This document shows positions 21,494 through 29,629 of a DNA stretch of 64,000 bases, piece after piece. The DNA comes from Devosia sp. Root436 (GTDB lineage: Bacteria > Pseudomonadota > Alphaproteobacteria > Rhizobiales > Devosiaceae). The DNA lies in the NCBI RefSeq assembly GCF_001426345.1, contig NZ_LMEM01000001.1:582264-646263 (forward strand), read 5' to 3'. Position 1 is the first letter of the stretch. Each line of letters opens with the position of its first letter. Position numbers and translations under genes: made by a program. Below the pieces are notes generated by a model. The model had not been told where the DNA came from. It ran no database searches and saw only the letters and a list, made by a program, of their open reading frames with translations.

Positions 21494-21568
21494 TCATTCC
21501 CGCGAAGGCGGGAGTCCCGGTTTCCTTGCGCATGGCAAAGGGAGATTCCCGCTTTCGCGGGAATGACC
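21494..21568. repeat. ATTCCCGC hairpin repeat, copy 1
   Basis: Outer arms GTCATTCCCGCGAA and TTCGCGGGAATGAC are perfectly complementary; inner GCGGGA segments form nested stems. It sits between hom and glpX and may act as a terminator for hom. Confidence 0.7.
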
Positions 21569-21595: not shown

Positions 21596-23104
21596 CTACA
21601 GCGTCTCTATGCGGATCAACTGCGGTTCACCGACGATAAACCCGTCCTCGGCGATCTGTGCAAGCGATTCACGCACGGCCGATTCCAAAGTCTGTTGCGT
21701 GATCATCACCACCGTCCGAGTGGGCGAGCCATCCGGCGCGACGGCTTTAGCGCCCAAATCGGACCGCTGGATGACACTATCGATGGAAATGCCGCGCTCG
21801 CCCATGCGGGTCGCAATAGCGGCCAGGGCGCCGGGCACATCCTTGGCATTGAGGCGGATATAGTAGCCGCCATCGTGGGCGCGCATCGGCGCCTGCTTAT
21901 AGGGCAGCAATTCGTCGCTGGGCACGCCGAGCGGGGGAACGCGGGTGCCGCGGGCGATATCGAGGATATCCGACAGCACCGAGGAGGCCGTGGGCGGGCC
22001 GCCGGCGCCGGGCCCGGCCAGCAGCAGTTCGTGGACATGGTCGGTTTCGAGCGCCACGGCATTCATCACGCCATCGACGCCGGCAATGGCCGAACCCTTG
22101 GGCACGAAGGTCGGATGGACGCGCTGCTCGATGCCCTGATCGGTGCGCTGGGCAATGCCGAGCAGCTTGATCTTGTAGCCGAGCTCGGCGGCGACCTTGA
22201 TGTCGTGCTGGGTAATGCGGGAAATGCCTTCCACGCGGATTTCGTCGGGCGCGATCTCGTAGCCGAAGCAGAGCGTGGCGAGGATCGAGAGCTTGTGGGC
22301 GGTGTCGAAACCTTCGACGTCGAAGGTGGGATCGGCTTCGGCATAGCCGAGCGCCTGCGCATCCTTGAGGCAATCGGCGAAACTGATGTCCTCATTGCCC
22401 ATGCGGGTGAGGATATAGTTGCAGGTGCCGTTCATGATGCCGAAGACCTTGGCGATGCGGGCCGAGCCCAGGCCCTCGCGCAGGGTCTTGATGACGGGGA
22501 TGCCACCGGCCACGGCGGCCTCGAAGCCGAGCTGGGCGCCGGATTCCTCGGCCAGGCGGGCGAGCGTGACGCCATGCTTGGCGAGCAAAGCCTTGTTGGC
22601 GGTGACGACGGGGCGGCCGATTTCGAGCGCGGCCTTGACCGCGGCGAAAGCCGGGCCGTCTTCGCCGCCGATGAGTTCGACGAAAAGGTCGATGCCGTCG
22701 GACTTGGCCAGGGCTACCGGATCGTCGAACCAGTCGAGCCCGGAAATATCAATGCCGCGGTCGCGGGAACGCGAGCGCGCGGCAACGGCCGTCACCACCA
22801 GTTGGCGGCCAAGTTTTCGGGTCAGCTCGGCGCCGTCCTTCTGCAGGATGCGGACCAGGGTGGCGCCGACATTGCCCAGGCCCGCGACGCCGATGCGCAG
22901 GGGCGCCAGGCCCTCGCCCTCGCCGAAATCGGCCATGGCCTTGAGGATGCGGGCGCGGGTATCGGAGCGCGGCTCGCGGCCCTCGCGCAGGTCGAAGACG
23001 AAGAGCGGATCGCCCGCGACAGTGCGGCCGAACCGTGTCGGCGTCCAGCCACGGGCGGAGATGAAGGTTTCGACGGCTTGGCGGAAGGAAGCGATATCAC
23101 TCAT
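21596..23104 (-). CDS. hom: homoserine dehydrogenase with N-terminal HTH-like extension
   Basis: A 502-residue protein. Residues 70-502 are a normal homoserine dehydrogenase: NAD(P) motif GVAGLGNVG near residue 72, catalytic region with NKALLAKHG, GIMNGTCNYILT and GYAEADPTFDVEG, and a C-terminal ACT domain (VPGALAAIATRMGERGISI) for threonine feedback. It reduces aspartate semialdehyde to homoserine. Unusually, about 68 extra residues precede it. They resemble a small alphaproteobacterial helix-turn-helix-like protein (FRQAVETFISARGWTPTRFG then VFDLREGREP). The HSD part has no start codon of its own at the usual place. A dyad lies 14 bp before the ATG. Confidence 0.92.
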   Translation of the reverse strand: MSDIASFRQAVETFISARGWTPTRFGRTVAGDPLFVFDLREGREPRSDTRARILKAMADFGEGEGLAPLRIGVAGLGNVGATLVRILQKDGAELTRKLGRQLVVTAVAARSRSRDRGIDISGLDWFDDPVALAKSDGIDLFVELIGGEDGPAFAAVKAALEIGRPVVTANKALLAKHGVTLARLAEESGAQLGFEAAVAGGIPVIKTLREGLGSARIAKVFGIMNGTCNYILTRMGNEDISFADCLKDAQALGYAEADPTFDVEGFDTAHKLSILATLCFGYEIAPDEIRVEGISRITQHDIKVAAELGYKIKLLGIAQRTDQGIEQRVHPTFVPKGSAIAGVDGVMNAVALETDHVHELLLAGPGAGGPPTASSVLSDILDIARGTRVPPLGVPSDELLPYKQAPMRAHDGGYYIRLNAKDVPGALAAIATRMGERGISIDSVIQRSDLGAKAVAPDGSPTRTVVMITQQTLESAVRESLAQIAEDGFIVGEPQLIRIETL

Positions 23105-23117
23105 GGTGGCGCCATCT

Positions 23118-23131
23118 GCATAGGAATATGC
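23118..23131. promoter_or_regulatory. 14-bp dyad upstream of hom
   Basis: GCATA-GGAA-TATGC lies 14-27 bp before the hom start, overlapping TAGG...CCTA. It might bind a regulator; the evidence is symmetry and position only. Confidence 0.3.
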
Positions 23132-23479
23132 CTAGCCGTCAATAGGAGTTTGGTGGGAAAGTCAGCGGCCTGTGTGGGTTGCGGGGCCTCCGCCACGGCG
23201 AGGTCGTCCCGGCCTTGAGGCAACCCGGGATGTCACAACAGCCGCGAGATCGTCACGCCACCACCTCGCTGCCGCGGCGCGGTTTGGGGTTGGGCCCCGG
23301 CTCAAGGCCGGGTGACGCCGCGGGTGTGGGACGGGAGTGCCTGCCCTTGCTACTTCCCAGCCGCCTTAGCGCGTCGGCGATCAGCTTGATGTATGGGGAA
23401 ACCCCCATTTGATCGAGAGAGCGGCAGGCGGGGGACCGATTTGATCAGTTGGGCGCCCACGACATGGGCGCCCTCTCCC
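23132..23479. other. geneless stretch between aminotransferase and hom genes, with hairpins
   Basis: No credible gene on either strand. It holds several short GC-rich dyads (GGCCCCGGCTCAAGGCCGGG and similar) and one clean hairpin at 23451-23473: GGGCGCCC, loop ACGACAT, GGGCGCCC. The latter lies seven bases after the aminotransferase stop and may terminate that gene, though no T-run follows. Confidence 0.5.
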
Positions 23480-29562: not shown

Positions 29563-29629
29563 GTCATTCCCGCGAAAGCGGGAATCCCCCTCGCCCTGTA
29601 AGGGAGATTCCCGCTTTCGCGGGAATGAC
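29563..29629. repeat. ATTCCCGC hairpin repeat, copy 2
   Basis: Outer arms GTCATTCCCGCGAAAGCGGG and CCCGCTTTCGCGGGAATGAC are perfect complements, with inner GCGAAAGC self-complementarity. Same family as 21494-21568. It lies between the SdpI-like gene start and the ribosomal-protein operon end. Confidence 0.75.

Follow-up and report, generated by a model that had tools for sequence, protein, structure and literature searches.

Why does the single homoserine dehydrogenase gene in the genome of Devosia sp. Root436, hom, encode a protein whose first sixty-odd residues do not belong to any homoserine dehydrogenase fold, and what might they do there? The question goes back to a preliminary description of a window of 64,000 nucleotides (the whole stretch of DNA that was analysed), which had been made from the sequence alone. 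It took the first 68 residues of Hom for a small helix-turn-helix (HTH)-like protein that normally stands alone, placed the start of the normal homoserine dehydrogenase (HSD) fold at about residue 70 in a frame open throughout, saw a dyad upstream and considered a regulatory module on a threonine-controlled enzyme.

The reading frame begins with ATG and is open over its whole length, as had been stated. Behind the extension lies a full PRK06349-type homoserine dehydrogenase, with NAD-binding, catalytic and ACT domains all present (Pfam, NCBIfam). The NCBIfam model PRK06349 Hom (NF004976) matches with 522 bits and covers only residues 68-501, and in the AlphaFold2 (AF2) model of full-length Hom (mean pLDDT 89.6) the ordinary NAD-binding fold begins at residue 66, so the proposed fold start also held. 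Judged by its sequence and predicted structure, Hom is a DNA-binding-type domain joined to a metabolic enzyme; that the latter is active is inferred from its being the only Hom in the genome. The features are collected in Table 1.

Table 1. Features of the hom locus of Devosia sp. Root436 (positions in the window)
Feature	Position	Strand	Basis
hom, HTH-homoserine dehydrogenase fusion, 502 aa	21596..23104	minus	ORF; PRK06349 Hom at residues 68-501; single Hom in genome
Homoserine dehydrogenase part, residues 67-502, including C-terminal ACT domain (about residues 412-500)	21599..22906	minus	Pfam PF03447, PF00742, PF01842; AF2
N-terminal HTH domain (predicted), Cro-like, residues 1-60	22925..23104	minus	AF2, PDB neighbours, family-wide conservation
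Putative recognition helix FVFDLR, residues 35-40	22985..23002	minus	AF2 helix; helix class tracks operator class
Nearly invariant promoter/operator block, genus Devosia	23113..23148	minus	43 sequences anchored on TTGAC
Operator-like palindrome TAGG-CATATT-CCTA	23121..23134	minus	Conservation at extended hom genes; single copy with TTGAC context
-35-like box TTGACG	23137..23142	minus	Conserved in block, kept where palindrome decayed; promoter function inferred
Additional upstream half-site CCTA	23143..23146	minus	Part of nearly invariant block; role inferred

Residues 1-60 are predicted to form an HTH domain of the lambda-repressor/XRE type, which supports the HTH-like character first proposed. 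AlphaFold2 places four helices in them (residues 4-18, 22-30, 35-40 and 47-59), and the domain modelled by itself reaches a pLDDT of 91.7. A comparison with HTH families had been suggested for this segment: residues 1-69 match no family in Pfam, NCBIfam or PHROGs, the curated HTH models (Pfam HTH_3, HTH_26 and others) give no family at a useful E-value for the Devosia domain, the best Pfam HTH score over the whole domain set (HTH_26, E = 0.18) is unconvincing, and a sequence search of the PDB with the domain returned no match. Its structural neighbours in the PDB are HipB antitoxins, restriction-controller C proteins, P22 c2, ClgR, SinR and POU domains. Taken singly, no structural score carries much weight (the best Foldseek E-value, 0.25, is weak; Z reaches 7.5 at most); the fold was assigned because the neighbour list is consistent, XRE/POU throughout, and not because of any single score.

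The extension could be an artefact or a commonplace. A Hom match was found in 119 of 119 good-quality Devosiaceae genomes, nearly all alignments beginning at residue 1 or 2, and the matches in this family that begin elsewhere are fragments or come from four domain-less MAGs. In nearly all Devosiaceae genomes searched the N-terminal region is in frame with Hom, for example in species of Devosia, Pelagibacterium and Arsenicitalea; residues 1-60 are conserved at the protein level over 15 genera, and the summed pN/pS is 0.20 for the domain versus 0.15 for the HSD part, from which we conclude that the domain is under purifying selection. The domain is absent from Hom in 12 outgroup families, and with Hom from other families of the order the match begins only near residue 67. 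A read error or chance ORF is ruled out by the family-wide conservation, and a helical cap shared by many homoserine dehydrogenases by the lack of the extension in the other families of the order. Neither finding that would have refuted the preliminary description, absence of the extension from relatives or its presence as a cap in many HSDs, was thus obtained; a survey of Hom across Devosiaceae and a check for read errors, both recommended there, gave a family-wide extension and no sign of such errors.

In a tree of the HSD part the Devosiaceae are grouped with full support, and the presence or absence of the domain requires three changes on it. The simplest reading of this tree is one gain and about two losses. 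The four MAGs, all of genus g28 (L060-L063), have a Hom without the HTH domain and represent natural losses of the putative regulator; no separate ORF for a split-off domain was seen in their upstream translations.

Upstream of hom the claim of a dyad held only in part. GCATA-GGAA-TATGC exists, but its arms vary from species to species; what is conserved is a palindrome offset from it by a few bases, TAGG-N6-CCTA. When 43 Devosia sequences were anchored on TTGAC, the nearly invariant block ahead of the hom start codon read CTCCTATTGACGGCTAGGCATATTCCTATGCAGATG (23148 down to 23113, minus strand), and the roughly 35 bases upstream of it showed no conservation. The palindrome sits three bases past the TTGAC -35 box, i.e. 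between this box and the start codon, and the centres of its two half-sites are separated by one turn of the helix (10 bp), which is the geometry of 434-type repressors. Since the -10 element of the hom promoter is indistinct, the exact placement of the site relative to the polymerase is only inferred. No strong Shine-Dalgarno sequence precedes Met1.

Of the 66 hom genes with the extension, 59 are preceded by the exact palindrome (shuffles predict 0.06) and the others have near matches or an altered spacing; it precedes none of 12 outgroup hom genes. The Root436 genome (3.9 Mb) contains three exact copies, one of them at hom; a wider regulon was considered and rejected, as the other two lack the TTGAC context. 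Of 61 Devosia genomes, 59 have the site with this context (TTGACN3TAGGN6CCTA) exactly once, and in each of them it lies at hom, no more than about 20 bp from the hom match. The other two are G018, with a spacer shortened by one base, and a genome of 55% completeness that yielded no Hom. In the four domain-less MAGs TTGAC is kept in 4/4 and the palindrome broken in 4/4, which is what one would expect of a site that serves the domain.

Where did the domain come from? Among the genomes sampled, profile searches detected it in Alphaproteobacteria alone, with the exception of a phage of Synechococcus; many of its members are standalone proteins of 65-95 aa. That the domain normally stands alone had been surmised, and its close relatives do, mostly as Cro-like phage proteins: the nearest kin of the Devosia domain are such proteins with 57-61% identity (L101, L209, L210). 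One of them, encoded in genome G261 (L101, L310), is 58% identical to the Root436 domain and adjoins an S24 repressor, with integrase-like and replication-type genes close by (the integrase read from its translation). In IMG/VR two contigs match the Devosia domain at 57-61%, and L101 is matched at 46-74% by a further nineteen; a relative of S24 lies adjacent on the opposite strand in 20 of these 21 contigs. The phage Cro-like genes are themselves preceded by TAGG-N6-CCTA, exact at 18 of 22 loci. The domain tree, built on 62 columns, is weakly resolved; in it the Hom domains fall into a single cluster amid the phage Cro-like proteins (support 86/80 and 91/86). The Devosia domain itself is fused to Hom and has no repressor neighbour, the layout of a standalone gene divergent from CI/S24 being seen only in relatives. 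It descends, we conclude, from phage Cro-like regulators rather than being one.

Hom is not the only enzyme to carry the domain. About ten genomes from one genus of another family (family f22, genus g75; L102, L104, L106, L108, L200 and L201) encode CysD, subunit 2 of sulfate adenylyltransferase, with the HTH domain at its N-terminus. Upstream of these genes at least 7 of the 8 palindrome bases are present in 10/10 and all 8 in 6 (0.00 exact expected), and TAGG-N6-CCTA often lies directly at the start codon. In the weakly resolved domain tree the CysD domains cluster separately from the Hom domains, and at least two captures therefore look independent.

Other fusions are less well supported than those to Hom and CysD. 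The domain precedes CoaBC (L103), a class II fumarase (L140) and AMP nucleosidase (L162) in one genome each, with gene models from that genome only; upstream of the CoaBC fusion there is a 7/8 match to the palindrome. A recurrent partner (L168-L182, L187, L197-L199, L204 and L205; many in 5.5-8.8 Mb genomes of genus g50) has the motif FRFFDNRQKYL...FDAGVGDGT and no match to a Pfam or NCBIfam family; from the motif only, it looks methyltransferase-like. For most of these fusions no clear operator-like site was found, and the rule that domain and site go together is therefore not universal. Some of them have widely spaced GTGGGCAG...CTGCCCAC arms upstream. Tandem domain pairs in one protein were also observed (L144, L149, L152, L158, L159 and L161), and in several tandem-copy proteins the frame runs on into a second HTH-like segment, excisionase/MerR-like by eye.

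A subfamily with the recognition helix DGK..VxRLR has a different palindrome of the same geometry, TGGG-N6-CCCA; of 12 standalone genes 11 have it, with 0.08 expected, and none has a TAGG site. Among 57 representatives D, N, Q or E at residue 38 goes with A in the site, and R or S with G, almost without exception. The count includes only cases with a strict palindrome, and sequences that are related do not count as separate evidence. A one-residue recognition code had to be rejected in view of L210 (VFQLR with TCGG) and L116 (VRQLR with both TGGG and CCCT); site class follows recognition-helix class, an association that holds at the level of classes only. One standalone member of the TGGG type, from a Devosia (L186, G013), is itself preceded by two TGGG-N6-CCCA sites.

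We propose that Hom of Devosiaceae is very probably an autogenous repressor, in the broad sense a trigger enzyme, whose domain and site were captured from a phage. An in-frame fusion in the ancestor of the family would have put a phage Cro-like domain ahead of Hom, and most simply the promoter and operator of the Cro-like gene would have come along with it as one cassette. The oligomeric enzyme would then present its HTH domains to TAGG-N6-CCTA and, bound between the -35 box and the start codon, block RNA polymerase. Transcription of hom would drop as the protein builds up, and the level of Hom would be held by Hom itself. The computational results themselves cover the fusion with its one origin and its distribution, the predicted fold, the kinship with phage proteins, the conserved single-copy site and its decay after loss of the domain, and the agreement of site class with helix class; DNA binding, repression rather than activation, and dimerisation through the enzyme are inferred. 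Against the proposal stand the lack of any experiment, the weak Foldseek E-values, the absence of a convincing Pfam HTH match, the indistinct -10 element, the want of a clear site at most FRFFDNRQKYL fusions and the poor resolution of the domain tree.

The most serious rival is a metabolite-gated trigger enzyme, in which threonine, a substrate or a cofactor bound to the HSD/ACT part would switch the HTH domain between a DNA-bound and a free state and hom transcription would follow the demand on the pathway, with a logic like that of PutA or BirA. This remains possible: the ACT domain is present at the C-terminus, and nearly all Devosiaceae encode HTH domain and enzyme as a single chain. There is, however, no evidence of ligand dependence, and the domain is also found on CysD, CoaBC and fumarase, which belong to unrelated pathways, in matches without an ACT domain; sensing of the enzyme level fits better. 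Tuning of DNA binding by threonine via the ACT domain is speculation. The regulatory module considered at the outset is in keeping with the conserved upstream palindrome, but a threonine-controlled DNA switch goes beyond the evidence. The domain might instead activate transcription, or bring Hom to DNA for some other function, and repressing the hom promoter would then not be its chief effect. Activation and repression cannot be distinguished from sequence; we nevertheless consider this unlikely in view of the Cro-like relatives and the position of the site, a protein bound between a -35 box and a start codon usually excluding the polymerase.

Conservation of the domain alone would also be compatible with a module that now serves only folding, oligomerisation or stability, the DNA block being merely a strong promoter. 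This is very improbable, as the palindrome tracks the presence and absence of the domain, recurs ahead of unrelated genes that share it, and changes with the recognition-helix class. Finally, the start could be misannotated and translation begin at Met57, near the usual start of Hom, with residues 1-56 an untranslated leader, a reading to which the lack of a strong Shine-Dalgarno sequence before Met1 lends some support. It is all but excluded by the conservation of residues 1-60 in 15 genera, their summed pN/pS of 0.20, and the homology to independent standalone genes. An additional short form of Hom from internal initiation may exist.

Autogenous repression by Hom would have precedents of a kind, since PutA, BirA and NadR are enzymes that control genes through a fused DNA-binding domain. 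PutA (proline dehydrogenase/P5C dehydrogenase) has, like Hom, its DNA-binding domain at the N-terminus and represses its own promoter. It differs in being another enzyme with a ribbon-helix-helix domain and in its established gating by proline and redox state, nothing comparable being shown for Hom. BirA (biotin ligase) and NadR (NMN adenylyltransferase) join an HTH to an enzyme within a single chain that acts on operators, as proposed here for Hom, but their HTH domains are of other families and they regulate operons by a metabolite signal, whereas the Hom site occurs once per genome, at its own gene. In BzdR an XRE HTH is fused to a shikimate-kinase-like domain, and the protein has been discussed as an HTH-enzyme hybrid (PMC3602430). 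It is described there as an enzyme-derived transcriptional regulator, whereas Hom is still the only homoserine dehydrogenase of the cell. The epoxidase HppE (hydroxypropylphosphonic acid epoxidase) is, like Hom, an enzyme with an XRE-like HTH-type domain (Z about 6 in a structural comparison); it is an unrelated cupin enzyme and, to our knowledge, does not regulate itself. Closest are the Cro-like proteins that phages encode next to S24 repressors (L101 and the IMG/VR contigs), which share the domain family and mostly the palindrome, yet are standalone proteins of phage immunity regions without an enzyme part. No description of the Hom architecture was found in the literature searched; most subscription papers were outside that search, and absence is not proven.

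Self-controlling enzymes with a fused DNA-binding domain are thus known, and Hom appears to be a new case of this kind. Broader and less certain is the claim that capture of phage regulators has been repeated. In this bolder reading, towards which we lean with reservation, cassettes from phage immunity regions (promoter, operator and Cro-like repressor) were captured again and again in frame before unrelated biosynthetic genes of Alphaproteobacteria, making each enzyme a repressor that senses its own concentration; the cases would be Hom and CysD, with CoaBC, fumarase and AMP nucleosidase as weaker candidates. Few self-repressing enzymes are known, and how they came about is largely guesswork. 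In this case living genomes show the likely donor (phage Cro-like genes), one in-frame capture, family-wide retention and the reversal, with domain lost and operator decayed. CysD as a clear second, independent case, together with several possible ones, suggests a general route, and phage-cassette capture, if true, would be a portable one by which enzymes gain autoregulation. A small HTH family without a Pfam entry thereby gains a probable function.

Elsewhere in the window, paired palindromic repeats CATTCCCGCGAAAGCGGGAAT lie between genes at 21495-21565, downstream of hom, and at 29565-29627; they are far above chance and REP-like.
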